Source of the DNA: Pseudomonadota bacterium
GTDB lineage: Bacteria; Pseudomonadota; Gammaproteobacteria; Burkholderiales; Nitrosomonadaceae
Direction of reading: 5' to 3'
DNA length: 48,170 nt
NCBI GenBank assembly: GCA_018241205.1
Contig: JAFEEI010000046.1
Location: forward strand, 1 to 48,170
Shown piece by piece: positions 9,345 to 33,385 of the stretch (within the stretch, counting starts at the first letter, position 1; every line of letters begins with the position of its first letter). The notes below the pieces were generated by a model that searched no databases, was not told the origin of the DNA, and saw only the letters and a program-made list of their open reading frames with translations. The position numbers were made by a program, and so were the translations under genes.

Positions 9345-9767
9345 TCATAATTTGACATTCGTACCTTCGGTGAAATAAAACGGATACACGATATTGTGAC
9401 GATTATTCGTGGCACGCACGATGTACGTGACATCAATCTTGATCAAACCATTCAGGATATCTTCCTGGCTACCGGAATCCACCCGGATACTTTCCACGAT
9501 CACCCGTGGCTCGAAGAAAAGGATGGCGCGCCGCACCAAATCGACCATGACGGTTACCGCCGTTTCATTGATCTCTTCAAAGACCTGGCTTTTCAGACCG
9601 CAGCCATACGTCGGCTGCATTACACGCTCGCCGGGATTGGTCGATAACAGAATAAACAAGCTCTCATGAATATCTTCTTCCGCAACCACCTTCCGTGCCG
9701 ATCCCCGCCGATTAAACTCGGGGGGAAATCCCCAGCCGGTGCCGAGAAAGGATTTATCGATACTCAC
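9345..9767 (-). CDS. Baseplate protein gp25/W (Afp9-like)
   Basis: A 140-aa protein of the GPW/gp25 family, the conserved sheath initiator of contractile tails, T6SS (TssE) and eCIS. The family core is clear: NPGERVMQPTYGCGL at residues 44-58 contains the glycine, Pro and Tyr-Gly-Cys-Gly positions found in nearly all gp25 proteins, followed by the amphipathic helix FEEINETAVTVMVDLVRRAI. The start is a GTG at 9767, 15 bases after the PAAR stop, with a purine-rich sequence upstream. The protein nucleates sheath polymerisation on the baseplate. Family call firm. Confidence 0.93.
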   Translation of the reverse strand: MSIDKSFLGTGWGFPPEFNRRGSARKVVAEEDIHESLFILLSTNPGERVMQPTYGCGLKSQVFEEINETAVTVMVDLVRRAILFFEPRVIVESIRVDSGSQEDILNGLIKIDVTYIVRATNNRHNIVYPFYFTEGTNVKL

Positions 9768-10132: not shown

Positions 10133-11923
10133 TTAGTTGATCATCACAATAGCGCCTTTTACCGTAGTCTGGCCGCTGGCCGACAACTCGGCGGTCGCGT
10201 TGCCCTTAGCGCTGAAACCGACATTCGCTTGATGATTGATATTCAGTCCCTGATTCTTGATATCCGCTTGCGCCGTCAATTCGATATTGCTCACCGCGTC
10301 GATGGTGACCTTGCCCTTGGCGCTGATCTTGATGTCTTTCGGGCTGTCGATAGTAATGCCGCTGGAGTTGAGCTCGATTTTGTTGGAATTCTGGTCTTGC
10401 AGCAGAATCGATTTCTGGTCGTCGCTGATGACGATCTTGTTATTGCCGGGTGTGGTCAGCGTAATGACTTTCTTGTCGTCGTCGAATTCGAGCTTCAATT
10501 TACTGCGCGTCACCACTGCCTTGGTGAAATTATCGGCGGTCAATTCGTAGGGCATTTTCTGTTTGCTGCTGTACAAACTGCCGAGAATCACCGGATGCGA
10601 AGGATCATCGTTGAAGTATCCGAGCACCACTTCATCGCCGATCTCCGGAATAAAAAAAGCGCCGATGCCATTGGAACCGTAAAAACTGGCCAGCCGCGCC
10701 CAGACGCCGTCGGTTTCCGCTTGCAAAACCGGGACGGATACCTGGATCTTGTATTGCCCTTCCGGATCCGCATCGAGTTTCTTCACCACACCGACTTGCA
10801 AGCCGTTGACCCCAGGCACGAAACCGGAAGTCAACGGCGCTTCGGTTTTATGCTGCTCGGTAAACCATTGCGACGGCATGCCGAACTCGATTTCCGTCAC
10901 CCAATTGCCCTGTTTGATGTCATGTTTCACCGCGGTGACCAGCACATTGCCATTAAAGCGTGCGCCCACGCCTTTCAATTCGACCAGATCGCCGGCTTTT
11001 ACCTTGGCGCTGCCCTGAAATGCCGCATAACCTCTGATGCGCGCCAAACCCGCCTTTATTTGCTGTCCTTTAGCCCATTCGGTGAGCACGGCATTCTCCA
11101 GCGGCGCATCGGTTTGCAAACGGAAATAATCCGGTGCCATCACACTCGCCAAATCCGCAGCCTTCAGATTGCCTTGGCCGGTCAGTTGTTCGGGATTCGC
11201 TTGCGCTTCTTGCACGGCTTGGCTGGTTGGATCCCAGGCAATGCCTTTGACCACCGGGAATTGCGAGGCCGCATCCAGGTCCGCGCTGAACGCCATCAAG
11301 TCGATGCCGTAGGTCAGTGTCAAAACGGCGCTGCCATCCGTTTGCGGTGCTTTGACGCTGACTTTGCCGCTGTTGGCGGTCACCAGAAAACCATTAACCT
11401 CGGCCCGGCTCAACAGGTAATCCCAGTCGGTGCAGTAGTATTGCACCAGTTCCTTATAGCTAGTCGTGGTGGCGGTGACATCGGAACTCAAGCCGCTGTA
11501 TCCGCCGATCAGCTTGCTGATAATGTCGCTGTCCTTCGAGTCGACAAAATTAGCGTTCTTGCGCCCCACCGTCATGGCGACCGCGCTGTCTTTACACTGC
11601 ACGATCAAACGGGAAAAATTATTACCGTCTATTTTTATACCGTGTTTGATAACCACACCTTTGAAAACAGAGGTCGTTTGATTGGCATAACCGGCGTTGA
11701 TGGTGATCACCGCGCCGGGTTTAAAATCATCCGTATCACTGACCGGAAAATCGTTGTTCGGCATATCCCCGTCCAACACGACGATCCTGGCGCTGGGAAT
11801 TTTATTGACTCCGTACATGATTTCGATCGAAACGATTTGAACGGTATCGGCTATGGCATTGCCGTTACTCAGAATGGTCACCGATACGACACCCGTGCTG
11901 CCCGTTAAGGGGGAATCCGCCAT
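10133..11923 (-). CDS. VgrG-like spike protein (Afp8-like)
   Basis: A 596-aa spike protein. ATG 11923 (MADSPLTGS) is chosen over an in-frame TTG two codons earlier because AAGG lies six bases upstream. Domain order: gp27-like hub (residues ~10-350, with the LLSRAEVNGFLVTANSGKV segment), a gp5-type OB fold (~375-470, VKKLDADPEGQYKIQVSVPV and VWARLASFYG, then GDEVVLGYF), and a beta-helical spike built of short repeats (~480-596, KIELNSSGITIDSPKDIKIS and SAKGKVTIDAV). In the family it forms the trimeric needle under the PAAR tip. No toxin extension follows the spike. A 559-aa open frame on the opposite strand is a coding shadow. Confidence 0.93.
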   Translation of the reverse strand: MADSPLTGSTGVVSVTILSNGNAIADTVQIVSIEIMYGVNKIPSARIVVLDGDMPNNDFPVSDTDDFKPGAVITINAGYANQTTSVFKGVVIKHGIKIDGNNFSRLIVQCKDSAVAMTVGRKNANFVDSKDSDIISKLIGGYSGLSSDVTATTTSYKELVQYYCTDWDYLLSRAEVNGFLVTANSGKVSVKAPQTDGSAVLTLTYGIDLMAFSADLDAASQFPVVKGIAWDPTSQAVQEAQANPEQLTGQGNLKAADLASVMAPDYFRLQTDAPLENAVLTEWAKGQQIKAGLARIRGYAAFQGSAKVKAGDLVELKGVGARFNGNVLVTAVKHDIKQGNWVTEIEFGMPSQWFTEQHKTEAPLTSGFVPGVNGLQVGVVKKLDADPEGQYKIQVSVPVLQAETDGVWARLASFYGSNGIGAFFIPEIGDEVVLGYFNDDPSHPVILGSLYSSKQKMPYELTADNFTKAVVTRSKLKLEFDDDKKVITLTTPGNNKIVISDDQKSILLQDQNSNKIELNSSGITIDSPKDIKISAKGKVTIDAVSNIELTAQADIKNQGLNINHQANVGFSAKGNATAELSASGQTTVKGAIVMIN

Positions 11924-11931
11924 AGTCAACC

Positions 11932-12633
11932 TTAATTTAAAGGAGGGAACCGCAGCTTGGTTCCCGGTTTTAGATTACGAAAATCGGTCAGACGATTAAT
12001 CTTGGCAATGTCAAGATAGTAGCTACAATCCTGATAAATCCGGTAACACAGCAGCGGCAAAGTATCTCCCGCTTTCACCTCGAGCAAATGCGTCAAATCC
12101 GGCGATTCTTGCGCAGCTTCCTTGGATATTTCCTCTTTGCTTTGATATTCGACAAAGGCCAGCGTCACTTTGGCCCGCAGCGGCACGCCGCTGGGCTTGA
12201 ACAAGGTATAGTCGAATTTAAGCGATTCCACCCGTCCGTAAAACAGCAACTCCCCCCATTTCACCTGCACGATCGGCGTTTCGTGCTTGGTGCCCCAGTA
12301 TCGATACACCACATCCTTCAATAACTCAATCTGATCTTTCACCGGAACGGGATCGCTAACCACAGAGAGCGGATTGGCCGAAACAGCGCCCGTAGCATCC
12401 AGTACCAGCTCCTTGAGAACAAATTTTTCCGGATGGCTTGCATCAAATTTGGTCTCGGTTCCCGGTTGCCCCAGCACCTTGTTTTTTGAGTAGCTCAACT
12501 TAAACGTTTGCTCATAACCGGCGGGATTGATCATGGCTTCAAATTTTTGCTGCGAGCTATCGACACTGATTTTGCCGTTATTCACGGTGCATGGGGATAT
12601 CGTCAAAAGCGCCTTGGTACCGCTCGGAGTCAT
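11932..12633 (-). CDS. LysM-domain hub protein (Afp7-like, gp53-type)
   Basis: A 233-aa protein with an N-terminal CIS-tube-type domain (residues 1-165; FEAMINPAGYEQTF and the aromatic VKWGELLFYGRVESLKF are characteristic) and a C-terminal LysM module (residues 182-230, LEVKAGDTLPLLCYRIY to LKPGTKLRFP). In phage T4, Afp and PVC this protein connects the tube initiator to the spike hub; the LysM fold serves structural contacts rather than clear peptidoglycan binding. The ATG at 12633 directly abuts the TAG of the upstream DUF5908-like gene, and eight bases separate its stop from the spike start. Confidence 0.9.
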   Translation of the reverse strand: MTPSGTKALLTISPCTVNNGKISVDSSQQKFEAMINPAGYEQTFKLSYSKNKVLGQPGTETKFDASHPEKFVLKELVLDATGAVSANPLSVVSDPVPVKDQIELLKDVVYRYWGTKHETPIVQVKWGELLFYGRVESLKFDYTLFKPSGVPLRAKVTLAFVEYQSKEEISKEAAQESPDLTHLLEVKAGDTLPLLCYRIYQDCSYYLDIAKINRLTDFRNLKPGTKLRFPPLN

Positions 12634-12815: not shown

Positions 12816-13286
12816 CTAGATGATGCGCATTGCGACGGTATAACTCAGAATGATCTTCTCGATGGCCACCTCGTTCTTGGTGGAACCGAAGCTTTCCACT
12901 TCCCATTTCAGTGGATATGCGGAATCAAAAGACCAGCCGCGAATTGGTGTTTGATCTTCGTTCATCAGATACACCAACACTGGCAATGGCTTGATCGCCA
13001 GATTAAAACCGGATTCGAGCGTCGCTTTGCACCATACCACCAACGGAGAAGTCAATGGTGCAATGCCGCGCTTCAAGGATAAATTGGGATGCTTGATGCC
13101 TTTCGGCAGCTGCCGGACGAATCGATTCTCACCGCCTTCAACAATGGACTCGACTTCCATTTCCGTTTCGATTCCGGATACTTCCTGAAAAGAAGTATCC
13201 GCCGACAATCCTGCCGGCGGTGCAATCACGACCTTGAAGTAGAAAGCAGAGGGCGGATAAACATTTCCGGATAATGAAATATTCAT
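12816..13286 (-). CDS. eCIS inner tube protein 2 (gp19-like; Afp5-type tube initiator)
   Basis: A 156-aa gp19-like tail-tube protein. The FQEVSGIETEMEVESIVEGG segment and the ending KNEVAIEKIILSYTVAMRI are the tube-family hallmarks. It differs clearly from the tube protein encoded just upstream and has the longer N-terminus (NVYPPSAFYFKVV) of the Afp5-like proteins that start the tube on the spike hub. A GAGGGG ribosome site lies about seven bases before ATG 13286, and 35 bases separate it from the upstream gene. Whether it caps the baseplate or mixes into the tube cannot be read from sequence. Confidence 0.88.
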   Translation of the reverse strand: MNISLSGNVYPPSAFYFKVVIAPPAGLSADTSFQEVSGIETEMEVESIVEGGENRFVRQLPKGIKHPNLSLKRGIAPLTSPLVVWCKATLESGFNLAIKPLPVLVYLMNEDQTPIRGWSFDSAYPLKWEVESFGSTKNEVAIEKIILSYTVAMRII

Positions 13287-13321: not shown

Positions 13322-13780
13322 CTAACTGTTGGCGATCGTCAAACCTTCATGCACGATCTCGATGGTTTCGATCGCCACTTCATTGCCTTCCGATTTCAGA
13401 TCGGTACCGGTGATCTTGGTCGGCCAGGCGTTCGTCAATGTCCACACCATGGTCGCCTTACCGCCTTCGTCCAGCAAACTGATGGTAACCGGCAGGCGCT
13501 TGATGGTATTCATCTTGATTTGCTTAAACCAATCCCAGAATTTGTTATCGCCTTTGAAGACGCCTTTCTTCATGGTGATATTGCCGAACTTTTTCATGCC
13601 CGGCATCTTGATCACGGAAAATTCCGGACTGTCGCCATGCCGGTACTTAATTTCTTCGGATTGGATATCCAATCCGCTGACCTCCTGAAACCGCATGACT
13701 TGTGAGTCCCATTTAACCTGAAAATAAAATTTCGGCATGGGCCAAACGGTCGTCGATTGAGCTGATCCATCATCTGCCAT
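13322..13780 (-). CDS. eCIS major inner tube protein (gp19-like; Afp1-type)
   Basis: A 152-aa tail-tube protein: PKFYFQVKWDSQVMRFQEVS at residues 16-35 followed by GLDIQSEEIKYRHGDSPEF is the standard gp19/Hcp-like tube start. The C-terminal SEGNEVAIETIEIVHEGL is the matching last strand and helix. In eCIS, hexamers of this protein stack into the effector-carrying tube. AGAGGT lies six to seven bases before ATG 13780. The gene sits directly after the sheath gene, with a 76-base gap. It is the more abundant-looking of the two tube proteins by position. Confidence 0.92.
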   Translation of the reverse strand: MADDGSAQSTTVWPMPKFYFQVKWDSQVMRFQEVSGLDIQSEEIKYRHGDSPEFSVIKMPGMKKFGNITMKKGVFKGDNKFWDWFKQIKMNTIKRLPVTISLLDEGGKATMVWTLTNAWPTKITGTDLKSEGNEVAIETIEIVHEGLTIANS

Positions 13781-13856: not shown

Positions 13857-15401
13857 TTAAGATTTCTGCATTTGCTGCTGGAACGTGATCTCGATAAACT
13901 CTGCCGGACGGCTTAGCGCAACCAGCACCGTCACACGCAATACGCCATCGAGAATATCCTGCGGTGTCATGGTCTCACCCAAGCCGACGAACACGCCGAA
14001 AGCATCGTCCGGTGTCGCGCCGGCCAAGCCGCCGCGTTTCCAGATACCGATGAGAAAATTGCTGATCATGCTTTTGATCGTCACCCAAGTATTGGAAACA
14101 TTAGGTTCAAACACATACGCTTTGGTCGCCAGCTTGATCGATTCTTCCAGCATGATCATGGTTCGGCGCACGTTGATATAACGCCAGTCCAGACTGTTGC
14201 CATCGAGTGTCCGTGCACCCCAAACCAACGTGCCTTCGCCGATGAAAGTGCGGATCGCATTGATCGATTTGCCCGCCGTCGTCACATTCAGATCTTCCTG
14301 TTGCGCATGCGTGATCTCGACGGATGGAGAGATCACCGCATTCAAGCTGATATTGGCCGGTGCCTTCCATACCCCGCGCGAATTGTCGACCAGCGTATAA
14401 ACACCCGCCATGCCGGCACTGGGCGGCAACAGATTAAGTTTGAGTTTGATGCTTTCGATGATGGCTTTATAGAGCGGGCAAACGGCCGTCAGAATTTTGT
14501 GCAAATCTGCATCGCTCGACATCGCATCAGTCTTCGGCGTCACCCCGATTTCCGCAATCTTCTCGTTAATCTCGGTTTTTTTCTTATCTTCCAATGCGCT
14601 GCCGTCAACTTCCGCTTTCAGCAATTCCTGCAATTTATCCGCATTGGAAACATTAGCGAAACTCAAATCGCCGGTTTGCACAATGGAGGTATTGAGCCAA
14701 GGATAATAAGCTGCGGCAAAATCCAGACTACTCGTGCCGAGATCGTTACGGAATTTCTCGATGCATCCGCTATCCTGCGCTTCCTTGTAGCCATCATACA
14801 CATCCAGGATGGCAAAGCGATTTTTCATCACTTGACCGCAATGACTCAAGGCCGCCTGTTGCAACGCGATACAATCCGGTTCCGCCAGCGACATGGCATC
14901 CGGAATCACCACCATCGTGGGTTCCTGTTCTTTCAATAAAATGTCGATCCCCGCGCTCAGTTTCGGTTTTTCGATATCCTGGCCATAACCGCCAACCGAC
15001 ACAATGTAGCAAGCACCGCCGCCATTCTGGAAGAACAGCATCATGCTGTGATACAGGAAATAACGTGCGCCCTGGAGTTCCAGAACATATTCCTTATCAG
15101 CACTTGAGAAATCGGATTCAACGACTGCAGCCGGTGCCGCCCCCGCTTTTCCTCCTTTTGCGCCGGCTGCCGCGGCAGCTTCGGAAATCTGATACTGCGT
15201 CTTAGGCGGTCCACCGAAGAAGCTGATAAATTCCGACATGGATGAAATACGCCACGCCTTATTCAGTAGAGTTTTTCCTTTATTGTTGGCCTTTTCCGTG
15301 TAACCGATAAAGGCCGGTACTGCCGTAGCCACTTCGACCACGGAATTGGGAAACGCGTTCTTTTCAACAATGTAAACACCCGGTGTCTTATACTGCCCCA
15401 T
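13857..15401 (-). CDS. Contractile tail sheath protein (Afp2/3-like)
   Basis: A sheath protein of about 514 aa and the first gene of the structural operon. Of two adjacent ATGs, 15401 (MGQYKTPGVYIVEK) has the better distance to the AAGGAG site. The N-terminal TPGVYIVE strand and PAFIGYTEK, and the C-terminal helix/strand (FLIGIWKRGGLAGATPDDAF, then GETMTPQDILDGVLRV and LSRPAEFIEITFQQQ), are the handshake segments that link neighbouring sheath subunits. Residues ~100-130 hold an Ala/Gly-rich insertion (SEAAAAAGAKGGKAGAAPAA). Only this one sheath gene is visible, whereas Afp has three paralogues, so this particle has a simple sheath like many environmental eCIS. It has its own promoter upstream. 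Confidence 0.95.
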   Translation of the reverse strand: MGQYKTPGVYIVEKNAFPNSVVEVATAVPAFIGYTEKANNKGKTLLNKAWRISSMSEFISFFGGPPKTQYQISEAAAAAGAKGGKAGAAPAAVVESDFSSADKEYVLELQGARYFLYHSMMLFFQNGGGACYIVSVGGYGQDIEKPKLSAGIDILLKEQEPTMVVIPDAMSLAEPDCIALQQAALSHCGQVMKNRFAILDVYDGYKEAQDSGCIEKFRNDLGTSSLDFAAAYYPWLNTSIVQTGDLSFANVSNADKLQELLKAEVDGSALEDKKKTEINEKIAEIGVTPKTDAMSSDADLHKILTAVCPLYKAIIESIKLKLNLLPPSAGMAGVYTLVDNSRGVWKAPANISLNAVISPSVEITHAQQEDLNVTTAGKSINAIRTFIGEGTLVWGARTLDGNSLDWRYINVRRTMIMLEESIKLATKAYVFEPNVSNTWVTIKSMISNFLIGIWKRGGLAGATPDDAFGVFVGLGETMTPQDILDGVLRVTVLVALSRPAEFIEITFQQQMQKS

Positions 15402-15444
15402 CATCAGCTCCTTTTAATTGGAATAGTCGCATCCATCGACAATT

Positions 15445-15501: not shown

Positions 15502-15530
15502 AGCTTAGCGGATGTCATATCAATACTCAA
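15502..15530 (-). promoter_or_regulatory. Predicted sigma70 promoter of the eCIS structural operon
   Basis: On the minus strand, TTGAGT (15530-15525) and TAAGCT (15507-15502) are 17 bases apart, about 100 bases before the sheath start. It lies between the stop of the GGDEF/EAL gene and the sheath gene and would let the structural operon be transcribed independently of the signalling genes upstream. The -10 hexamer is imperfect. Confidence 0.5.
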
Positions 15531-15581
15531 GCGTTATGTAAAAAATCGGTAAAATTCCTATTCATGATAACCGGGCGAACC

Positions 15582-18500
15582 TTATCGGCACGTTGAGTGC
15601 TCGCGTAACCAAGCTTCAAGCTCTATAGCTGGCACAGGCCGGTGAAACAAAAATCCTTGATAATAATCGCAGTCATGCTGGCGCAGAAAAGCCAATTGCT
15701 GCTCCGATTCGACACCTTCCGCCAGCACACTTAATTTCAGGTTGCGCGCCATGGCAATAATCGTTGCGGCAATTTCACGGTCGTTGGGGTCGTGCGCCAA
15801 ACCGCGCACAAAGCTTTGATCGATCTTGAGTTTATCGATGGGGAATCGTTTCAGATACGTCAACGACGAATAGCCCGTACCGAAATCGTCGATTGCCAGT
15901 TGAATTCCCGGCGCTTTCAGTGTTTTGAGCGTTTCGATCGACCGTTCCGCATGCTCCATGAACATGCTTTCGGTTAATTCGAGTTCCAAACAAGCTGCGG
16001 GGAGTTTCGTTTCTTCCAGCACCTGCTGGATCACTTCAACCAGATTCTCCGATTGAAATTGCCGCACCGACAAATTGACCGCCATCACCAGCGGCGGCAA
16101 GCCAGCATCGATCCAGGCGCGCCCTTGTGCGCAGGCGGTGCGCAATACCCACTCGCCGAGCGGCACGATCAAACCGGTTTCTTCTGCCACCGGAATAAAT
16201 TTTCCCGGCGGCACCATTTCCTTACCCGGCGGCTGCCAGCGCACCAACGCCTCGGCGCCAACCACCCGGCCGCTATGCGCATCGATCAATGGCTGATAGT
16301 GCAGAATGAATTCCTCCGCGGCGAGTGCATGACGCAACCGGTTCTCCATCGCCAGACGCTCATTTGCGGCAATGCTTAAAGCTTCGGTATGGTAACGATA
16401 GGTACTGCGGCCTTCTTTTTTGGCCAGATACATCGCCATATCGGCATGCTGGATCAGTTCGGTGACATTGCACGCATCATCCGGGAAAAGGCTGATGCCG
16501 ATACTGCCATTGATAAAGATCTCGTGACCGCTCGGCAACACAAAGGGGGTTGTCAGCAGATCGATCAACATTTGCGCAACGGCGGCAGGTTCGCTCGCAT
16601 CCTTGACGTCTTCCAGCACCAGCAAAAACTCATCACCACCCAACCGTGCCAGCGTATCTTCCTCGCGCAAGCGGTTTCTCAAGCGCGATGCCAATAAAAT
16701 CAGAAGCTCATCGCCGACCGGATGACCCAAGCTGTCGTTGACATTCTTGAAGCGATCCAAATCGAGACAAAGCGTGGCAATGCGGAAATTATGCCGTTGT
16801 GCGCGTTCAATGGCATGATGCAGCCGCGATTGCACCAGCAACCGGTTCGGCAGGCCGGTTAACGGATCGTAGTGCGCCAGATGTGCCACGCGCGCCTCGG
16901 ATTGTTTCATCTGCGTAATGTCAGTAAATACACCGACGTAATTGCAAGGCTCATTGTTGTCGTTGCGGACTGTGGTAATCGTCAGCCATTGCGGATAAAT
17001 TTCACCGTCTCTGCGGCGGTTCCAGACTTCTCCGCGCCAGTAGCCTTCCTGGAGCAAGCTGGCCCACATCGCCCGATAAAACGATTTGTCGTGGCGCCCC
17101 GACTTGATGACTTTAGGGTTTTTGCCAAGCACTTGCGCTTCGCTATAACCGGTAATTTCCATGTAGGCGCGATTGACCGCCAGGATACGCGGCTCCAGAC
17201 TCGTGATCACCACACCTTCACGCGTAGATTCGAAAACTGCCGCGGCCTGCCGTAAAGTTTCCGCCGCGTAGATCTTTTGCACCGCCAGCGCCGTGATGGA
17301 GGCAAACTCATGGATCAGCGCCAGATCGCCCGACGCGGGCTCGCACGGCGTATGATGATAAATGGCGAAAGTACCCAGAACTTTGCCGTTCTCGTCTTTA
17401 AAAGGCAATGACCAGCACGCATGAAGATTAGCTTTACGTGTTAATTCCAGATAAGGCTGCCAGTAGGGATGGCGATCGATATCGGCAACGATGACCGCTT
17501 CACCGCGCCAAGCCGCTGTGCCGCAGGAGCCGACGCCATCGCCGATCTTCAGTTGATCGACAGCCGCGTTGAAGTCAGCCGGTAAACTTGGTGCCGCGCC
17601 ATGCATGAGGCACCCTGCATACTTATCCAGCAGCAAAATGGAAACCAGCATGCTGGAATCGATTTTCTCAAGGCGCCCTGCAATATCGTTCAGAATCACA
17701 GCCAGCGGCCGGCCGGCCACAATCATATCCATCGCGGACTGGTGCGCCCTTCTTATCAATTCGACCCGCTTGTGCTCACTGATATCCAGCCAAGCACCGA
17801 CAATTTCATGCGGCTGACCATCGGCGTTCCGTATCAGCCGCAGCTCGTCGAGAATCCAGATGACTCGCCCGTCACTGCAATAAAAGCGGTAATCATGCGT
17901 CAATTGACCGTCGGTCATCAAAGTCAATTGACACGCCATCGCCAATTCACGATCGTCCGGATGCAAGTGGGAAAGCCACCAATCCGGTGCAAGCGCTTCC
18001 TCCACGGTATAACCGAACAATCGCTCGATGTTTTCACTGATCCAAGCAGGATGCAGCTTATCCCCGGCAAAGCGCAGGTTGTATAGCACCATCGGACTGG
18101 CGGCGAGCAAATGAGAAAGACGCAAACTGGTTTGTTTCAGGCTGGCTCGCTCACGCGTCAATTCGGCTTGCTGGCGTGCTTTTTCCAATGTAGCCGGAAT
18201 TTCGAAGAGATAGCCTTCGTGTTTGGGTAAGTAATCTTCCACGCCCAAGTGCAATGCGCGCGCAGCGACCATTTCACTGCCCTGCCCGGTGATCAGCACA
18301 ATGGGAATATCCAGTTTATGTTCGTCGCGCAGCAATTTAACGAACTCGAGGCCATCCATGCCAGGCAAACGGTTATCGATCAGCAAGATATCGAAACCGG
18401 CAGCTTTTCCCGGCTCGCCTGATAACAGCACCACAGCCTGTCGCGCGCTCGTCACCGCGGTCAGATGGATATGCGGCGCATGTTGAGCCAAGTGACGGCG

Positions 18501-18950
18501 CATCAAATCGATATCAAAACTATTATGTTCGACATACAGCACCCGCAATGTCAGCAGATTGCGATCCACACTGTGGCTGCGAAAGCGCGCGAGCGCACTG
18601 CGCAAAGTGCGCGGCAGCCGCTCCAGATAATCGCCTTCCTTGATCAGATATTCATCCGCGCTAGCCTTAAACGCCGCAACCGCCGAATCATGATCTCCGG
18701 ATCCGGTAATAATCACCACCGCCAGCGGCAGCTGCCGCTCCCTGATATTGGCCAATGCTTCCAAACCCGAGCCGTCGGGTAAGTTGAGGTCGGTCAGCAG
18801 CACATCGTAATAATCAGGCTTTTCGAGACATCTCAGACCCTCCGCCAGCGATGTGACCGCGATCAATTCGATATCGGGTGCCGTCCGCGCCAGCGTGCGC
18901 TGGGCAATGTCGGCATCGCTGAGGGTATCTTCGATATACAGGACGCGCAT
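15582..18950 (-). CDS. Dual-receiver PAS/GAF GGDEF-EAL c-di-GMP regulator
   Basis: A 1122-aa cytoplasmic protein with no membrane segment. Domains in order: receiver 1 (residues 1-120; D8, D54, K104), receiver 2 (~134-250; D192), PAS (~280-395), GAF (~400-560), PAS with PAC (~565-690), GGDEF (~690-855) and EAL (~870-1115). The cyclase motif GGDEF is intact at 771-775, with an I-site REED at 762-765, so product inhibition is likely. The phosphodiesterase motif EALVRW begins at 900, and DDFGTGYSSL and LKIDQSFV are present, so both activities could work. It starts five bases after the stop of the receiver gene and is the last gene of the signalling operon, directly upstream of the sheath promoter. 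The two receivers imply phosphorylation control, perhaps by the adjacent kinase. Coupling to the eCIS is inference. Confidence 0.93.
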   Translation of the reverse strand: MRVLYIEDTLSDADIAQRTLARTAPDIELIAVTSLAEGLRCLEKPDYYDVLLTDLNLPDGSGLEALANIRERQLPLAVVIITGSGDHDSAVAAFKASADEYLIKEGDYLERLPRTLRSALARFRSHSVDRNLLTLRVLYVEHNSFDIDLMRRHLAQHAPHIHLTAVTSARQAVVLLSGEPGKAAGFDILLIDNRLPGMDGLEFVKLLRDEHKLDIPIVLITGQGSEMVAARALHLGVEDYLPKHEGYLFEIPATLEKARQQAELTRERASLKQTSLRLSHLLAASPMVLYNLRFAGDKLHPAWISENIERLFGYTVEEALAPDWWLSHLHPDDRELAMACQLTLMTDGQLTHDYRFYCSDGRVIWILDELRLIRNADGQPHEIVGAWLDISEHKRVELIRRAHQSAMDMIVAGRPLAVILNDIAGRLEKIDSSMLVSILLLDKYAGCLMHGAAPSLPADFNAAVDQLKIGDGVGSCGTAAWRGEAVIVADIDRHPYWQPYLELTRKANLHACWSLPFKDENGKVLGTFAIYHHTPCEPASGDLALIHEFASITALAVQKIYAAETLRQAAAVFESTREGVVITSLEPRILAVNRAYMEITGYSEAQVLGKNPKVIKSGRHDKSFYRAMWASLLQEGYWRGEVWNRRRDGEIYPQWLTITTVRNDNNEPCNYVGVFTDITQMKQSEARVAHLAHYDPLTGLPNRLLVQSRLHHAIERAQRHNFRIATLCLDLDRFKNVNDSLGHPVGDELLILLASRLRNRLREEDTLARLGGDEFLLVLEDVKDASEPAAVAQMLIDLLTTPFVLPSGHEIFINGSIGISLFPDDACNVTELIQHADMAMYLAKKEGRSTYRYHTEALSIAANERLAMENRLRHALAAEEFILHYQPLIDAHSGRVVGAEALVRWQPPGKEMVPPGKFIPVAEETGLIVPLGEWVLRTACAQGRAWIDAGLPPLVMAVNLSVRQFQSENLVEVIQQVLEETKLPAACLELELTESMFMEHAERSIETLKTLKAPGIQLAIDDFGTGYSSLTYLKRFPIDKLKIDQSFVRGLAHDPNDREIAATIIAMARNLKLSVLAEGVESEQQLAFLRQHDCDYYQGFLFHRPVPAIELEAWLREHSTCR

Positions 18951-18955
18951 CGCCG

Positions 18956-19378
18956 TTACCTGCTCGATTCATTAAGCACGCACCAGTAAAGCTCTATCTG
19001 CTGCGCCACATCCATGAAATTATCAAAGCCGACCGGTTTGACAATGTAAGAATTAGCCCCCAGATCATACGCGGCTTGAATATCGCGATCTTCTTTTGAA
19101 GTGGTCAGCACAACGACCGGAACACGCCGCAGCAAAGCATGCGCTTTCAGAGTCTTCAGCACAGCTAGACCGTCGATCTTGGGTAATCTCAGATCGAGCA
19201 AAATGACCGCCGGCCGGGTTTCTCCGCTCTCCCAGCGCGGCACCCAAGCCAGCGCTTCCTCACCGTCCCGCGCGACCAGAATGGGGTTGGCCAGCTTGCG
19301 CTGCCGGAAAGCGCGCAAGGTCAAGTCGACATCCAGCGGATTATCTTCAACCAGGAGAATGGGCGGGCATGAATTCAT
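18956..19378 (-). CDS. Single-domain response regulator (receiver only)
   Basis: A 140-aa receiver protein without output domain. ATG 19378 is preceded by GGAG at about nine bases; a TTG one codon earlier is less likely. The phosphorylation site is intact: E11-D12 acidic pair, phospho-acceptor D62 in LLDLRLP, TTSK switch residues and the lysine in YIVKPVGF. The form (ILLVEDNPLDVDLTLRAF, a long loop WESGETRPAV, end at ELYWCVLN) is that of the Rcp1/CheY-like regulators that often travel with bacteriophytochrome-type or multi-PAS kinases and serve as phosphorelay shuttles. It sits between the hybrid kinase (18-base gap) and the GGDEF-EAL protein (five-base gap), so a relay kinase to receiver to GGDEF-EAL is plausible. 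Confidence 0.93.
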   Translation of the reverse strand: MNSCPPILLVEDNPLDVDLTLRAFRQRKLANPILVARDGEEALAWVPRWESGETRPAVILLDLRLPKIDGLAVLKTLKAHALLRRVPVVVLTTSKEDRDIQAAYDLGANSYIVKPVGFDNFMDVAQQIELYWCVLNESSR

Positions 19379-19395
19379 CAATTAAGACTCCATCG

Positions 19396-22300
19396 TTATT
19401 TCGGGTTTTCTTGCACTGCGGGTAGTTGCAAATAAAAGGTCGCTCCTTCGCCAGGCGCGCTCTGCGCCCAAACCCGGCCGCCCATGCGTTGCATGGCCTT
19501 CTTGACCAGAGCCAGGCCGACCCCCGTTCCGGGATAATCCTCCAGCCGGTGGAGACGCTCAAAGATCTCGAATATCCGCTGATTGTACTTCATATCAAAA
19601 CCAATGCCATTATCTCGAATCCACAACGAGATCCGCTGACCATCCCGCGTGGAGCCGAATTCGATACGGGGCTGCGCCGAATATTGAGTGAATTTGATTG
19701 CGTTTTCCAATAAATTGCGCAGCACCAGCGCCAAACCGTCGCGATCTCCGCGCACCATGAGCGGTGACAAATTGCTGACGATTTCGATTCGATTCTTCGC
19801 AATATCTTCACTGCACTCTTTCAGCACCTGCTGAACCAGAACAGACAGATCCACCGCAGCGGACTCCAGCTGGCAACGTTCCATGCGCGAATACGCCAGC
19901 AAATCATTGATCAACTCATTCATCCTCGTCACCCCGGTACGAATATTTTTGATGAACAAACGTCCCTCATCGTTCAACCGGTCAGCGTAATCATCCTGCA
20001 GCAGTCGGCTGTACCCTTCGACGCCGCGCAACGGCGCTTTCAAGTCATGAGAAACGGAATAGACAAAACTTTCCAGCGACTGATTGATCGCGGTTAATTC
20101 CGCAGTGCGCAGATTGATACGCTCTTCCAGCTCGGCATTCAGTTGCTGCAATGCCGCCTCGGCCTGTTTCTGATGGGTGATATCCTCGGTAAACATCGCA
20201 ATCCCGCCGATTGCGCCGCCAACTTGATACCAAGGCCGCACTTCCCAGCGCAACCACTGCACACTACCGTCAGCTCGCACAAAACGATCTTCGTCGGCAT
20301 GGATGATTTCGCCGGCCAGACAGCGGCGATGGATGGCTTTCCAGTCTTCGCCAATTTCGGGAAAAACATCGTAATGACACACTCCCGATAAATCATGCTC
20401 AGCCAGTTTGTAATCGCTGCGCCAGCGCTGGCTGCAAGCAAGGTAGCGTATTTCCCGGTCGAACATGGCCAGCGAGGCCGGTGCATATTCAATGAGCAAT
20501 TTGAGTTGCTCTTTGCTCTCATAAAGCGCCATCTCGGCCAGCTTGCGATCGGTGATATCCTGCACGGTGCCGTGCATTGCAATGATGCGGCCGTCGGCAT
20601 CGTGTATCGCTTCGCCACGCAAAATCGTCCAATGATGCACGCCATCCTGCCGTACCACTTCCGCATCGCACTGGAATACCACGCCCTCGCGCCAGCATTT
20701 TTGCACTGCGGCGTCCAGTCTGTTCCAGCTATCTGCGGTGTAATAGCCCGCTATCTCCTGATAATTGGCGGGTGGCAGCGCCGGATCACGGCCGCAAATA
20801 GTGTAAAGTTCCTCGGACCAGGTTTGCTCATCAGCGCCGCTCCACGTCCAGTGTCCGAGGCTAGCAATCCGTTTCGCTTCCTTGAAGTTTGCTTCGGTTT
20901 CCTTGCGGCTTTGTATGTCTTCAACGACGGCAATGAAATAATCCGGTGTGTTATCCGCTTTGCGCACCAGGGAAACATGGAGATTAATCCAGATCACGCT
21001 GCCATCCTTGCGGACAAAGCGTTTTTCCATCGCATAACCGGCAATCTCACCGTTCAGCGTACGCCGGACATAATCGAGGCTCGTCTCCAGATCATCGGCA
21101 TACGTAACATTCTGAAAAGTACGCATCATCAATTCATCTTGACTGTAACCCAAGATATCGCAGAGCTTCCGGTTGACGCGCAACCAACGCCCTCCGGGCG
21201 AAATAATCGCAATACCCGTGGCCGCTTGCTCGAACGTCGCCTGAAAGCGTTTCTCACTTTCTTGCAATTGCGCATGAGCACGATGGCATTCGATCACCAG
21301 TTTATCGACGCGCGCCAGCAGCTCATTGATGCTGAAAGGTTTGTGCAGAAAATCCTGCACCCCGAACTTCAACAGCCGCACACACAAGTCATCATCCGTC
21401 TTGGCAGTCAACATAATGATGGGAACCTCTGTCAATGCAGCATGCTGGCGTATCTGCCGCACCATGTGCTCACCGTCCATCTCTGGCATCATCACATCGG
21501 AAATAATCAAATCGGGCGGCATTGCCAGCGCCTGCTGCAAACCTTGCCGGCCGTTGAAGGCGCTGACCACCCGGTAATTGGGTTGCAACATCTCGCTCAG
21601 AAAGCGATTCATATCCGCACTATCCTCAACAACCAGCACCAATGGCTTATCGTTGGCCGGATCTGGCGGAACCGGCGATATATTTTGCACACCTGCCCGC
21701 AGTTCATCGAGAGTTTCATGCGCCATACCTTCGTCGGGCTGAAGCGGTGAATCCGATAGGGAAGAACCAGCTGGCGCCGAGCACGGCAATGTGATTCTAA
21801 ATAACGCGCCGCCGCCCGGCGGTTCCTCTAGCTCGAGTTCGCCGTGCAGTAAATGAACGAAATCCTTGACAATAGGCAATCCCAATCCGGTTCCGCGATG
21901 ACGGCGGCCTGCAACGTTCTCGATTTGAACAAAGCGCTCAAATATGTGCTCACGCATATCCTCCGGTATGCCGGGACCATTATCCTGCACTTCGATTTGC
22001 ACGCGGTCTCCGCTGGCGGCAAGCCGCACCGTGATACAGCCTTTATCCTGAACGAACTTGAATGCATTCGACAACAGATTGAGCAAGATGCGCTGCAGTT
22101 TCTCGTGATCGCTTTCGATCACGCAGGTTTCCGGAACAATGGTTTGCAACGCGATGGCATGCGCCTGCGCCAGCAATTCGAAGTCACTCGACGTGGTTCG
22201 CACCAGCCCGGCCAAATCGAACCGCGCCCAGTGAACTTGCATGCGCCCCGCTTCGAGTTTTGCCGCATCGAGCAAATCGGTAACCAGCCGGTAAAGAACA

Positions 22301-23037
22301 TGCGCATTACGCAGCAGCAATTCGGTTTCCTGGCGCTCCTGCGCTGCCGCGTTGCTCTTGATGAGCCGCTGCATGCGGCTCTCCAGCGGCGCGAGAATCA
22401 ATGTCAGCGGTGTGCGTAGCTCATGGCTAATATTGGCAAAAAACTGCGACTTGAGCTGATCCAGCTCGGTCAAGCGCTGATTCAACCGTTCCTGCTCTGC
22501 CATTGCTGCCTTCAAGTCGCGATTGGCTTGCTTCACTTCGGCCGCACGCTGCACGATCTCGGCTTCCATGCGTTGCGCGCGCGCCTTCACCTTGCTCGAC
22601 TGCGCCTTATTATCATGACGGACAATGTATTCAGTCACGTCCTCAACATGGTGAAAGATATAAGCGACACGGTCCTCGGCATCCAAAACCGGCGTATTAA
22701 CCGGACTCCAATACTTGAGTTCGAATGCGCCACTGCCATCGCGTAACGGAATATCGTACTTTTGCACGTTCATGACATCCGCTTGTTTCTTACTCACCAC
22801 ATGATTGAGCGAAGCACGTAAGTCACGCACACTGGTGGATGCCTGATCTTCCGGATTATCGGGAAAAACATCGAATATGCTTTGACCCACAATGGCGTCG
22901 CGCTTGGTACCCGTCACTTCAAGATATTTATCGTTCACGGCGGCGATGGTGAAACTGGAATCCGCGCGCAAGATCAGATACGGATGCGGGCTTGCCTCGA
23001 ATAACTGCTGATAGGGTGGAATTTCAAGCATGAGCAT
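19396..23037 (-). CDS. Multi-PAS hybrid histidine kinase with two kinase cores
   Basis: A 1213-aa soluble sensor kinase. Order: PAS (5-135), coiled coil (~140-195), HisKA with H205 in FFANISHELRTPL, HATPase with the DNGPGIPED and GTGLGLPIV boxes (~305-420), receiver (~465-580; D514 in ISDVMMPEMDG, K567), three PAS/PAC units (~590-710, 715-830, 840-960), coiled coil, a second HisKA with H997 in FVYSVSHDLKAPL and a second HATPase (DNGIGFD, GTGVGLALV). Two complete cores of different type in one chain are uncommon; the second resembles phytochrome-type kinases. There is no transmembrane segment, so it senses a cytoplasmic cue. The start is 23037 or the ATG two codons later. It is the first gene of the signalling operon and has a near-consensus promoter. 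Confidence 0.93.
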   Translation of the reverse strand: MLMLEIPPYQQLFEASPHPYLILRADSSFTIAAVNDKYLEVTGTKRDAIVGQSIFDVFPDNPEDQASTSVRDLRASLNHVVSKKQADVMNVQKYDIPLRDGSGAFELKYWSPVNTPVLDAEDRVAYIFHHVEDVTEYIVRHDNKAQSSKVKARAQRMEAEIVQRAAEVKQANRDLKAAMAEQERLNQRLTELDQLKSQFFANISHELRTPLTLILAPLESRMQRLIKSNAAAQERQETELLLRNAHVLYRLVTDLLDAAKLEAGRMQVHWARFDLAGLVRTTSSDFELLAQAHAIALQTIVPETCVIESDHEKLQRILLNLLSNAFKFVQDKGCITVRLAASGDRVQIEVQDNGPGIPEDMREHIFERFVQIENVAGRRHRGTGLGLPIVKDFVHLLHGELELEEPPGGGALFRITLPCSAPAGSSLSDSPLQPDEGMAHETLDELRAGVQNISPVPPDPANDKPLVLVVEDSADMNRFLSEMLQPNYRVVSAFNGRQGLQQALAMPPDLIISDVMMPEMDGEHMVRQIRQHAALTEVPIIMLTAKTDDDLCVRLLKFGVQDFLHKPFSINELLARVDKLVIECHRAHAQLQESEKRFQATFEQAATGIAIISPGGRWLRVNRKLCDILGYSQDELMMRTFQNVTYADDLETSLDYVRRTLNGEIAGYAMEKRFVRKDGSVIWINLHVSLVRKADNTPDYFIAVVEDIQSRKETEANFKEAKRIASLGHWTWSGADEQTWSEELYTICGRDPALPPANYQEIAGYYTADSWNRLDAAVQKCWREGVVFQCDAEVVRQDGVHHWTILRGEAIHDADGRIIAMHGTVQDITDRKLAEMALYESKEQLKLLIEYAPASLAMFDREIRYLACSQRWRSDYKLAEHDLSGVCHYDVFPEIGEDWKAIHRRCLAGEIIHADEDRFVRADGSVQWLRWEVRPWYQVGGAIGGIAMFTEDITHQKQAEAALQQLNAELEERINLRTAELTAINQSLESFVYSVSHDLKAPLRGVEGYSRLLQDDYADRLNDEGRLFIKNIRTGVTRMNELINDLLAYSRMERCQLESAAVDLSVLVQQVLKECSEDIAKNRIEIVSNLSPLMVRGDRDGLALVLRNLLENAIKFTQYSAQPRIEFGSTRDGQRISLWIRDNGIGFDMKYNQRIFEIFERLHRLEDYPGTGVGLALVKKAMQRMGGRVWAQSAPGEGATFYLQLPAVQENPK

Positions 23038-23100: not shown

Positions 23101-23129
23101 ATTATTATCAAATAAATTAGCATTGTCAA
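23101..23129 (-). promoter_or_regulatory. Predicted strong sigma70 promoter of the signalling operon
   Basis: On the minus strand a perfect TTGACA (23129-23124) is followed after 17 bases by AATAAT (23106-23101), about 65 bases before the kinase start. The spacer is AT-rich. It is among the best sigma70 matches I found in the window and separates the signalling operon from the eCIS genes upstream. Confidence 0.65.
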
Positions 23130-23216: not shown

Positions 23217-23426
23217 CTACCGGATAAAGATCTCAAGCCTTGCCAAGAGCCTTACCAAGAAGATGCCTCCCACGTTATTCTCCTTCAAATTATCTGACAA
23301 CCCGGCTGACGCCCGCATAGCATCCTTCACGCCCGGACACTCGCCATCTTGCACTGGTGTGCTGAATTGGATCAGGAAGAAACAACGCGCAGACAACTCT
23401 GCCGGTGATGCGCCATCATCGATCAA
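23217..23426 (-). CDS. Possible small ORF after the eCIS unknown gene
   Basis: An open frame of 69 codons that starts with a TTG overlapping the TGA of the preceding 286-aa gene. It contains CFFLIQFSTPVQDGECPGVK and ends in GGIFLVRLLARLEIFI. No family recognised and no convincing ribosome site; the composition reads like real protein, so it may be a coupled small gene or the tail of a decayed one. It fills most of the 385-base gap between the neighbouring genes, the rest being the signalling-operon promoter region. Confidence 0.3.
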   Translation of the reverse strand: MIDDGASPAELSARCFFLIQFSTPVQDGECPGVKDAMRASAGLSDNLKENNVGGIFLVRLLARLEIFIR

Positions 23427-24283
23427 TTGATATAAATTTCGGAAACATTTTCCATCGCGCCGCCCAGCACTTCCCCGTGCACTTGATCCACGCGGGCATT
23501 CGGCAGGCGCTTGATCAGTATTCTATCGCCCGTGCTGGTTGATTCCTTCAGTTGCAGTCGTTGAGAAGGCTGTTCACATAGCGGAATCGCCTTTGACGAT
23601 CGCAGTTGAATCGCCTCGCGATTTCCAGGCAGCTGGATGTTGCCCAGGTTTTCAAACTGAATGGCACTATCCAAATCCGCAATATAGACATTACGTTTGG
23701 ATAGATCGCCAAGAATGTAGTATTTCCAGAATGTTTGACCGGTGGCAAAGCGAATATAAAACCGGCGCGCTTCAGCATCCAGCTTATCCGAGCACAACCC
23801 TTGCGCACCGGCGGTAATTGACAGCTGCAGAATAAAGAGCGGTTTGACGAAATAATCCTTGCGTTCCAGTATTTCAGGCAGCGGATCCGCGCTTAGTTTC
23901 ATCCAGGCCGCTGCAGTGACGCTTGCATCGGGATGCAGCATTTGCTTGCCCGCCGCATCGCGCGTTATCTGCCGATTGCTGAAAAAAAGTACCGCGTCAT
24001 CGGGCGGTGCCTCTGGAGAGGTGTAGCGGAAAAAATTGCTATCCTTGGAAAAAACCTTGAAAGCCAGCGTCAGGTTATCTTCCGCATGCAACCGCAAGAT
24101 GTCGATTTTCTCTTCATCGAAATAAATCGCCACACCGCTTTGCGATGACTTGACCAGCAAACCCGCGTTCCTCAGTTTGGCGGCGCAAAACTCCGCCGCA
24201 ATGAATTCCAGCATTTTGCAGTTATTTTCCGCAAAATAGGCATGTTCGACAGTCACACTCGCGAGAAGACGATAAGCGCCCAT
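23423..24283 (-). CDS. eCIS-associated protein of unknown function
   Basis: A 286-aa protein starting at ATG 24283. No signal peptide or membrane segment. The N-terminal ~110 residues read as a small alpha/beta fold (MGAYRLLASVTVEHAYF, then AIYFDEEKIDILRLHAEDNL), the middle has KDYFVKPLFILQLSI and RFYIRFATGQTFWKYYIL, and the C-terminal part is beta-rich and Ser/Thr/Gln-rich, ending in ENVSEIYIN. I know similar proteins beside DUF4255 genes in eCIS loci, but not a function. It lies 57 bases after the Afp16-like gene and before the signalling operon, so it is probably part of the particle or its assembly. Confidence 0.7.
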   Translation of the reverse strand: MGAYRLLASVTVEHAYFAENNCKMLEFIAAEFCAAKLRNAGLLVKSSQSGVAIYFDEEKIDILRLHAEDNLTLAFKVFSKDSNFFRYTSPEAPPDDAVLFFSNRQITRDAAGKQMLHPDASVTAAAWMKLSADPLPEILERKDYFVKPLFILQLSITAGAQGLCSDKLDAEARRFYIRFATGQTFWKYYILGDLSKRNVYIADLDSAIQFENLGNIQLPGNREAIQLRSSKAIPLCEQPSQRLQLKESTSTGDRILIKRLPNARVDQVHGEVLGGAMENVSEIYIN

Positions 24284-24340: not shown

Positions 24341-24913
24341 TTATTTCACCATCGGCTGCGGTTCGCCCACAACCGGGATACGACCGGTGATATCCTCGGC
24401 ATCGAAAGCTACCATGCGCACCTTATACAGGATGGATGGCAGATATTTCCCCCCCAGTGAACCCCATAAGTTACTGAGATCCTGGATCGACAGATTCTCG
24501 ATGTCCAGAATCAGCTTTTCGATGCGCTCGTCCATCTCAGGCGCAGTTTGACGCGTGAAGACATGATTCTTCTGGAAGAAATGGATCGTGCTGGATAAAA
24601 ATTTCAGCGCTTCCGGATAATTGTTGCCGGTAAAATTGGCTGTCATCATCAGGTACAGATTGAAGTACAGCGGCACGCTGCTCTGCGCTTCCCGCTCCCC
24701 GACTTCATGCAAGCTTACCTGCCGGAACGGAACGGTGTCTTTCTCGATATTGACCAGAAAAACGACCAGTTTATTACTGATATTGGCCGCCATGCTGCCG
24801 TCCATTTCCAGCAAATTGGAAACCACCACGACATCTTCATTGAGATTGTAGGTGCGCCGCAAATACTGGTTCAACTGCATCGCCAGAATTTGTACAGCCA
24901 GGTTAATCATCAT
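24341..24913 (-). CDS. DUF4255 / Afp16-like tail terminator (cap) protein
   Basis: A 190-aa protein with the DUF4255 (Pvc16 N-terminal) pattern: AVQILAMQLNQYLRRTYNL at residues 6-24, VVVVSNLLEMDGS, a strand NKLVVFLVNIEKD, and the later PLYFNLYLMMTANFTGNNY and FLSSTIHFFQKNHVF. In Afp, Afp16 closes the distal end of sheath and tube and fixes length. The start is ATG 24913 or the ATG directly after it; no strong ribosome site is visible. It is separated from the sheath operon by about 9 kb, most of which is the signalling operon. In the family it is usually near the locus edge, so this marks the upstream border of the eCIS. Confidence 0.88.
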   Translation of the reverse strand: MMINLAVQILAMQLNQYLRRTYNLNEDVVVVSNLLEMDGSMAANISNKLVVFLVNIEKDTVPFRQVSLHEVGEREAQSSVPLYFNLYLMMTANFTGNNYPEALKFLSSTIHFFQKNHVFTRQTAPEMDERIEKLILDIENLSIQDLSNLWGSLGGKYLPSILYKVRMVAFDAEDITGRIPVVGEPQPMVK

Positions 24914-30612: not shown

Positions 30613-32133
30613 CTAACGCCGTTTCTGCCCTAATATCGACCCGAGCACGCCACGGGTAATCTCGCGCGCAATCGACGAGCCGACCGAACGGGCGGCGCTT
30701 TTTGCAAAGGCATCGAGCACGCTTTCGCGCCGTCCGCCGCGCTTATTGGACGAACCGAGCAGCAAATCACCCAACTCGGACAGAATTCCTTCGCCTGCGG
30801 GTTTATGCACACTTCCGGAACCGCCCGTTTGAGTTGAATGACCCAGCGGTTTTTCAGCGCCGCCGCGTGCTTGCAGCAATTCAAAAGCGCTTTCGCGGTC
30901 GATTTCCTGCTCGTAGACACCGGCCACAATCGACGACTGCATCAATTCCTTGCGCTCGTCCGCTGTGATCGGACCGATCTGGCTGACCGGCGGCACGATC
31001 AGTGCGCGTTCGGTCACGCCGGGCGAACCATCCGCATCGAGAAAAGAAACCAGCGCTTCGCCGACCGAAAGTTCGAGAATCGCTTGTTTGACGTTCAATT
31101 TCGGATTGGGCCGCATGGTTTCGGCGATCGCGTTCACCGCTTTCTGATCGCGCGGGGTAAAAGCCCGTAACGCATGCTGCACGCGATTGCCCAGTTGACT
31201 CAACACTTTCTCGGGGATATCGAAAGGATTCTGCGTGACGAAATAAACGCCGACGCCTTTGGAGCGGATCAGCCGCACCACCTGCTCGATTTTTTCCAGC
31301 AGCGCGGGCGATGCCATGCTGAACAACAAATGCGCTTCGTCAAAAAAGAATACCAGCTTGGGTTTCTCGCGGTCACCGGTTTCCGGCAGATTTTCGTACA
31401 GCTCGGACAACATCCACAGCAAAAAGGTGCTGTACAGCCGCGGCGAGTTCAACAATTTATCGGCGGCCAGAATATTGACGACACCCTTGCCGTCGATAGT
31501 CTGCATCAAATCCTCGATATTCAGCATCGGTTCGCCGAAAAACTTGCCGCCCCCCTGTTTCTCGATCTGCAACAAACCGCGCTGAATGGCGCCGATCGAA
31601 GCCGGCGACACGTTGCCGTATTGCGTCTTGAACTCGTCCGCATGATCGCCGACAAATTGCAGCAGCGCGCGCAAATCCTTCAGATCGAGCAACAACAAGC
31701 CATGATCGTCAGCGACTTTAAACACCAAAGTCAGCACGCCTTCCTGCGTTTCGTTCAGATTCAGCAAGCGCGCCAGTAGCAACGGTCCGAGATCGGAAAT
31801 CGTCGCGCGAATTGGATGACCGTTCTCCTGCAATACATCCCACAGCGTCACCGGAAAACCTTGCCATTGCGGCGCATCCAGTTGCAGCATATCCAGTCGG
31901 GCTTGCATTTTTGCGGACAGCGATCCGGGCTTGCAGATACCGGTCAAATCGCCTTTGATGTCCGCCATGAATACCGGCACACCGATGCTGGAAAAGCTTT
32001 CCGCCAGTTTCTGCAGCGTCACCGTTTTGCCGGTGCCGGTCGCGCCGGTGATGCAGCCGTGGCGCGTCGCCATCGCGGGCAAAAGGGCCACATCGGATTT
32101 ACCGGTTTTGGCGATAATCAATGATTCGGTCAT
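30613..32133 (-). CDS. HerA/YjgR-like ATPase (DUF853)
   Basis: A protein of about 506 aa; I prefer ATG 32133 ([14 protein letters not shown]), which fits the start of YjgR-type proteins, over the ATG at 32166. Walker [15 protein letters not shown] lies near residue 28, Walker [14 protein letters not shown] near residue 265, and [15 protein letters not shown] is the sensor region of HerA/FtsK-type ATPases. The C-terminal ~100 residues are Gly/Ser-rich and end in GSILGQKRR. Relatives are DNA-translocase-like enzymes of uncertain role. The gene ends exactly at a MITE. It is divergent from the glucokinase gene with about 150 bases between. Confidence 0.9.
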
Positions 32134-33286: not shown

Positions 33287-33385
33287 CACAACCGCACATT
33301 GACTGGATTCGAAGCGCTGAATCCAATCAATCAGCCGGTTCACGGTGTATCATATCAACGCTTATTCGCAACGAGGAGAACCGCC

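Follow-up and report, generated by a model that had tools for sequence, protein, structure and literature searches.

The question raised by the 48,170-nucleotide stretch analysed here (the window; contig JAFEEI010000046.1 of the Nitrosomonadaceae assembly GCA_018241205.1) is why three signalling genes lie inside a locus for an extracellular contractile injection system (eCIS). The genes stand between the Afp16-like cap gene and the sheath gene, all in the same direction, and the coordinates, order and direction given in an original prediction from the sequence proved correct. They encode a hybrid histidine kinase (HK), a single receiver (REC) and a REC-REC-PAS-GAF-PAS-GGDEF-EAL protein (CDG) with the domains of enzymes that make and break cyclic di-GMP (c-di-GMP); we refer to them together as the cassette or trio. 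To our knowledge, little is settled about what turns eCIS production on, and the original prediction proposed that the trio could set particle production or release. We favour, with a probability of roughly 0.6, a different answer, namely that it is an autonomous, old and widespread signalling cassette with its own switch, which became nested in the eCIS through a shared chromosomal address.

The proteins themselves are largely intact. Pfam finds HisKA and HATPase_c twice each in the kinase, together with PAS domains and a single internal receiver, and in the window its H-boxes, N and G boxes are preserved, confirming the two complete cores that had been predicted. No output domain is found in the hybrid kinase, nor a Pfam DNA-binding domain in any of the three proteins. 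The acidic pair, Asp and Lys are intact in the kinase receiver, the free receiver (which we take to be Rcp1-like) and the first receiver of the CDG, whose GGDEF, RxxD I-site and EAL motifs are complete. The expected architecture and I-site of the CDG are thus present, but its second receiver is degenerate and not clearly fit for phosphorylation: it lacks the second acidic residue in all 22 loci compared, the acidic pair reading E-H in 19 and A-H or E-S in the other three, and two good receivers in this protein are rejected. Judged by sequence matches, the front half of the kinase resembles an LvrA-type hybrid kinase (residues 8-596 against 4-598 of the NCBIfam model) without being a member, as its 717.6 bits fall below the curated cut-off of 1200; an LvrA-like front half occurs in most Nitrosomonas cassette copies found. 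Likewise, the C-terminal half of the CDG appears closest to the phosphodiesterase DibA (residues 558-1112 against 69-622), its 725 bits remaining under the cut-off of 980, short of membership. PADLOC matches for the kinase (PDC-M43B, PD-T4-6) cover its ATPase and receiver domains and were regarded as generic.

In nested copies, the median ratio of non-synonymous to synonymous change (dN/dS; pairs with dS under 2 only, from eight loci, or nine for the CDG) is 0.13 for the HK, 0.06 for the REC and 0.09 for the CDG, compared with 0.14 for u286, the gene of a 286-residue protein beside the cap gene, and 0.08 for the eCIS gene afp7. These values point to a cassette maintained as a working unit under purifying selection, the purpose of which dN/dS does not tell. 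Two nested copies are not intact: in L035 the kinase is shortened, and in L039 the CDG lacks part of its middle. Under the favoured reading, the cytoplasmic, PAS-rich double-core kinase would autophosphorylate on an internal cue, phosphate would pass via its own receiver and the stand-alone receiver to the first receiver of the CDG, and phosphorylation there would set the GGDEF/EAL balance, perhaps towards net c-di-GMP breakdown.

A single GGDEF gene near an eCIS is by itself a weak association, because 23 GGDEF matches (E<=1e-10) occur in the source genome, and the recurrence of the arrangement carries more weight. Taking a sheath match at E<=1e-60 as a strong eCIS (our own cut), we found strong matches in 20 Nitrosomonas genomes and one of another family (G088) among 101 genomes, the source genome included; another 16 genomes, with weaker matches, were not assigned to this eCIS type. 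A second set of 24 Nitrosomonas genomes, which brings the genus total to 85, added eight strong matches and one divergent eCIS in G106 (L185, 9450-12367), where two adjacent sheath genes are 40% and 36% identical to that of the window. Gene order was inspected at all 28 strong Nitrosomonas loci. The cassette directly precedes the sheath gene in 11 of them (the window, L031-L035, L039, L040, L047, L049 and L050), N. oligotropha Nm75 and Nm45 being named loci with the same arrangement, and the trio as a one-off is rejected. On the other side of the cassette, u286 is found in nine of the 11 nested loci, on the same stretch in eight and on a second contig (L072) in G003; the contig of L039 breaks off on this side, and L035 (G028) lacks both the cap gene and u286.

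At 14 of the 28 loci u286 directly precedes the sheath gene with no cassette between, and at the remaining three (L036, L186 and L187) no cap gene, u286 or cassette was found upstream of the sheath. With 17 of the 28 strong loci lacking a nested trio, it is rejected as an obligate part of this eCIS type. L036 is sister to nine nested loci in the eCIS core tree and carries a gene for a small secreted-looking protein upstream of the sheath instead. In a class-wide sample, 12 of 369 genomes have a sheath match at the same cut, ten of them not Nitrosomonas; gene order was examined for five of these ten, the other five being weaker (E 1e-86 to 1e-76). Outside the genus, u286 adjoins the sheath gene without a cassette in five of the six loci examined (G088, G195, G325, G366 and G330), and in the sixth, G267, u286 was not found. 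The nested trio is absent from all five same-type eCIS loci of other families.

The cassette is, in turn, common where no eCIS is seen. A kinase search of the 101 genomes (E<=1e-100) retrieved 20 genomes, of which 11 have the nested arrangement, eight are Nitrosomonas without a strong eCIS, and one, G092, has a partial kinase alone. Receiver and CDG adjoin the kinase in all eight free Nitrosomonas loci (L051-L058), the CDG of L058 being broken in frame. A scan of named genomes with the kinase alignment matched 259 relatives, the best 80 of which gave 79 loci, each examined over at most 10 kb on either side and some over much less; "without eCIS" refers to that stretch. Among these best 80 of 259, the order HK-REC-CDG occurs in 30 of the 79 loci, six of them Nitrosomonas with an eCIS, eight Nitrosomonas without, and 16 elsewhere without, so that 24 of the 30 have no eCIS gene in the stretch; these 24 include Accumulibacter, Methyloversatilis, Aromatoleum, Polaromonas and N. 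nitrosa. The window trio has the order and domains of these free-standing cassettes of Betaproteobacteria and others, which differ from it in showing no eCIS gene nearby, and the CDG of the 16 loci outside Nitrosomonas is 48-65% identical to that of the window.

Across the 85 Nitrosomonas genomes, CDG relatives (E<=1e-250) are found in 31 and an eCIS in 29 (28 strong plus G106), with both in 13 (the 11 nested, G053 and G106). The CDG thus occurs in 13 of 29 genomes with an eCIS versus 18 of 56 without, which is no significant difference (Fisher p=0.34) in a test that is rough, the genomes being partly incomplete and related. The presence of the eCIS does not predict that of the cassette, nor the reverse, and the phylogenetic co-occurrence expected of a dedicated eCIS regulator is not seen. 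The original prediction had proposed that a trio linked to the eCIS would stay with it across distant genomes and be missing without it; neither part is borne out, considering the five trio-free loci outside the genus and the many eCIS-free carriers. The opposite pattern, with the trio at unrelated loci and absent beside the eCIS of relatives, is not found either, since 11 eCIS carry it.

If the two elements come and go separately, what brings them together may be a common address. In six free loci (L053, L054, L056, L057, L071 and L073), genes for a phosphorylase, a glucokinase and HerA come before the kinase, and the same three families lie at 30613-35941 in the window, upstream of its eCIS. 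In other Nitrosomonas, it is a free cassette or the cap gene that comes after HerA, and the distance between HerA and the cap gene is some 40 bases in G027, which has a nested cassette, and likewise in G022 and G053, which have none. When HerA and a dapE-like gene were mapped in the 101 genomes, the eCIS with nested cassette was found between the two markers in G029, G044, G046 and G031, and beside HerA in G041, G027 and the window. The eCIS alone occupies the interval in G022 (between both markers), G053 (beside HerA) and G043 (on the dapE side), the cassette alone in G013, G025, G051 and G057, and neither is present in G020, in which the markers are about 6 kb apart. Exceptions to this address are G042, where dapE adjoins the cap gene and HerA is on another contig; the rearranged G028; G003 and G054, with HerA on other contigs; G059 and G060, with the cassette far from HerA; and G012 and G017, where the cassette contig lacks HerA and a glucokinase-family gene lies in the examined stretch. 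No HerA match at E<=1e-100 was found in six strong eCIS genomes (G004, G006, G019, G026, G043 and G055), and in G034 HerA and the sheath gene are on different contigs. Overall, the map suggests that in Nitrosomonas both cassette and eCIS would use the interval between HerA and the dapE-like gene. A 153-base inverted-repeat element, 84% identical, occurs upstream of the kinase both in the nested L040 (u286-kinase gap) and in the free L057 (HerA-kinase gap); it may serve as a substrate for recombination or simply be one of many dispersed repeats.

The trees bear on how often the nesting took place. The tested nested groups were named after the gene orders had been seen and before the trees were made. 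In the eCIS core tree (sheath, tube, afp7 and afp8; 21 rows, after dropping tblastn matches under 60% cover or 38% identity, such as the sheath of L050 and afp8 of L035), the nested loci fall into a group of nine and a group of two (L039 and L040), and a single clade of nested loci is rejected by the approximately unbiased test (p-AU 0.001). In the cassette tree, nested and free copies are mixed and one nested clade is again rejected (p-AU 3e-5); with outgroups, L039 and L040 group with the free copies L056 and L071 (support 95/90). For the CDG tree, pieces under 48% identity were dropped and L141, L148 and L150 left out. A clade of the nine nested loci alone is also rejected for the cassette (p-AU 0.00014), because N. 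europaea-like copies from free loci branch within the group; a single nested clade that may include these copies is rejected only weakly (p-AU 0.035). An rpoB tree, made without G025 (only 28 positions matched), separates two nested groups of eight and two genomes. The source genome was left aside because its rpoB looks foreign: the sequence G000:C154 forms an extreme branch among Nitrosomonas (3.26 changes per column) and its contig is probably a contaminant. The source assembly (3.08 Mb in 210 contigs, 89% complete) is probably a metagenome-assembled genome. It is assigned to Nitrosomonas on the basis of the named loci that share its arrangement.

Since same-type loci outside the genus have no cassette, insertion of the cassette into the eCIS is the simpler direction. 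It would have landed between the sheath promoter and u286, leaving every eCIS gene unbroken, in at least one and probably two lineages, or by one insertion with later losses.

Repeated nesting also fits a dedicated control module, in which the relay would sense a cytoplasmic cue and c-di-GMP or the free receiver would set particle production, firing or release. In 11 genomes, spread over two groups of the eCIS tree, the sheath gene comes right after the trio; one clade of nested loci is rejected for eCIS core and cassette alike, most nested copies have intact motifs, the genes are under purifying selection, and the cassette is not found intact and apart in any strong-eCIS genome. Two-component genes beside eCIS are also known: Geller et al. 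(2021; PMC8213781) report GerE regulators near 25.8% of eCIS loci, and 9% of those have a kinase. The window resembles these in having two-component genes that adjoin the eCIS, and differs in having as output no GerE domain but a free receiver and c-di-GMP turnover. Against such a module stand the 17 strong eCIS without the trio, the spread of the cassette without eCIS and the lack of co-occurrence, the want of a DNA-binding domain, the absence of any Rfam match in the window at gathering score, and the absence of PilZ among the scanned eCIS proteins, the two PilZ matches of the source genome being on other contigs. A scan of 15380-15640 gave one Rfam match only, of E 3.8, to an unrelated family on the other strand; a c-di-GMP riboswitch before the sheath is rejected. 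We consider an eCIS control role possible but do not favour it, because the cassette is wider than the association, both come and go separately, and the address is shared. Of the original proposal, a conserved, mostly intact and co-directional operon inside the locus stands; nothing found ties c-di-GMP to the production of particles, given no PilZ, no Rfam match and separate promoter-like elements.

These elements also bear on a coupling in cis, by which a globally acting relay would be kept in place because its promoter, or read-through from it, adds condition-dependent transcription of the sheath operon. The cassette runs in the direction of the sheath gene, which follows after 177 bases with no terminator-like site in the window scan, and the best promoter-like site in 13000-25500 is the TTGACA-17-AATAAT just before the kinase, in a scan that is not proof, with 15 promoter-like and 15 terminator-like sites compared with 11.6 and 13.3 in shuffles. 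TTGACA is at the same place in five of eight nested loci compared (the window, L031, L032, L047 and L050), has a diverged form in L034 and L049 and is lacking in L040; free copies differ. The sheath gene, however, appears to have a promoter of its own: CTTGAG-N18-TAAGCT begins 126-146 bases before it in all 11 nested loci, and is present in four of the 17 other strong Nitrosomonas loci and none of five outside the genus. Similarity to L037, which has no nested cassette, extends across the whole sheath leader, and therefore the cassette lies upstream of that leader. Coupling in cis is a rather remote prospect. Under the autonomous-cassette reading, the cassette would be transcribed from its own promoter and the sheath operon from another downstream.

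Several observations weigh against an autonomous cassette. The position is identical in two groups of the eCIS tree; in each of the 11 genomes that combine a strong eCIS with a kinase match at E<=1e-100, the two lie side by side and never apart; among eCIS genomes, unlinked copies occur only in G053, where the copy is broken, and in G106, which has the divergent eCIS; and read-through from CDG to sheath is possible, because the genes are co-directional with no terminator-like site between them. The shared address explains neighbours, not nesting inside the eCIS, and the nesting itself, at one point and in two groups, is the odd remainder. The unlinked copy of G053 (L141, G053:C170), an eCIS genome without nested cassette, is decaying, with kinase pieces in different frames, a diverged receiver and a CDG cut by the contig end.

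The remaining features of the window are collected in Table 1. Sheath, tube, CIS-specific tube, tape-measure and cap proteins are all present, which identifies the locus as an eCIS, and on the minus strand the order is cap, u286, HK, receiver, CDG, sheath, two tubes, CIS_tube, hub-spike, gp25, baseplate J and then tape measure, with further open reading frames (ORFs) of no strong family between the last two. The HK-receiver and receiver-CDG spacings are 14 and 5 bases, all three genes being on the minus strand. The set of parts in one locus is that of Afp/PVC-type eCIS; unlike in those, cap and u286 precede the sheath, with the 7.5-kb cassette between them and it. The ATPase (Afp15) and fibre of that type are not seen in the window, whose contig ends inside the tape-measure gene.

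Table 1. Positions of the signalling cassette, the eCIS genes and the conserved flank in the window
Feature	Position	Strand	Basis
Hybrid histidine kinase, PAS-HisKA-HATPase-REC-PAS-PAS-PAS-HisKA-HATPase, 1213 aa	19396..23037	-	Pfam, motifs
Stand-alone receiver, 141 aa	18956..19381	-	Pfam; phospho-acceptor Asp and Lys intact
CDG, REC-REC(degenerate)-PAS-GAF-PAS-GGDEF(I-site)-EAL, 1122 aa	15582..18950	-	Pfam, motifs
Promoter-like TTGACA-17-AATAAT upstream of kinase, 11/12 match	23101..23129	-	Motif scan
Promoter-like CTTGAG-N18-TAAGCT, starting 127 bases upstream of sheath	15502..15531	-	Comparison of loci
u286, eCIS-linked protein without assigned fold, to the left of the cassette	23423..24283	-	Locus comparison
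Pvc16_N, Afp16-type cap protein	24341..24913	-	Pfam
eCIS sheath protein	13857..15404	-	Pfam
Tube protein, gp19 type	13322..13780	-	
Second tube protein, gp19 type	12816..13286	-	
CIS_tube, Afp7-like	11932..12633	-	Pfam
Phage_base_V / hub-spike, Afp8-like	10133..11929	-	
gp25-like baseplate wedge	9345..9767	-	
Baseplate J-like, Afp11-like	5491..9330	-	
CIS tape-measure protein, cut by contig end	2..1294	-	
HerA_C gene, left marker of chromosomal interval	30613..32166	-	
DUF3417/phosphorylase gene, same conserved flank	33299..35941	+	
ORF between HerA and phosphorylase, clustering with glucokinase-like proteins	31931-33286		

No family was assigned to u286 by Pfam at E<=0.001, NCBIfam or PADLOC; at Pfam E<=0.5 only RteC appears (E 0.069), and its structure model, built with six sequences, has a mean predicted local distance difference test score (pLDDT) of 34. 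Opposite-strand ORFs of about 400-485 residues lie in the u286-kinase gap of L032 (4179-5474, minus strand), L034 (13236-14690, plus strand), L031, L049 and L050, the frame of L031 being broken. Their N-terminus (..DNRPE..AQR..) resembles eCIS cargo leaders, and matches to DNA/RNA endonucleases are weak and below cut-off (E 0.0025 in L032, 0.15 in L034). Searching by the leader pattern found no such ORF in the window, L040 or L047.

Other regulatory genes are also present in the window. A LysR-type regulator (27761-28672, plus strand) lies between HerA and the cap gene, an interval that narrows to some 40 bases in G022, G027 and G053. Farther upstream, past HerA and an operon of efflux type, a kinase-receiver gene (42285-44264, plus strand) and two receiver-GerE regulators (44645-45310 and 45622-46350, both minus strand) lie some 17-21 kb from the cap gene. 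The receiver-GerE genes at 44645-46350 are of the regulator type linked to eCIS in PMC8213781. The main text of that paper does not contain the term "GGDEF", and in the accessible text of PMC10066040 c-di-GMP occurs only in a reference. The present arrangement was not found in the titles or abstract openings of papers on eCIS with c-di-GMP, kinase or two-component, or on contractile injection with GGDEF or Nitrosomonas, a coverage outside which most subscription papers and preprints fall.

Taken as a whole, the locus is a warning that the position of a gene inside an eCIS locus is by itself no evidence of function. It is doubtful, though conceivable, that nesting of a c-di-GMP phosphorelay at the same eCIS point took place on two or more independent occasions in Nitrosomonas because the relay gates the particles; if true, a surface-to-planktonic c-di-GMP switch would be wired to contractile injection in ammonia oxidisers. 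Nitrosomonas amounts to a natural experiment, its species having in the same chromosomal interval only the eCIS, only the cassette, the one nested in the other, or neither; a link to c-di-GMP can therefore be tested directly in N. oligotropha strains that are in culture.

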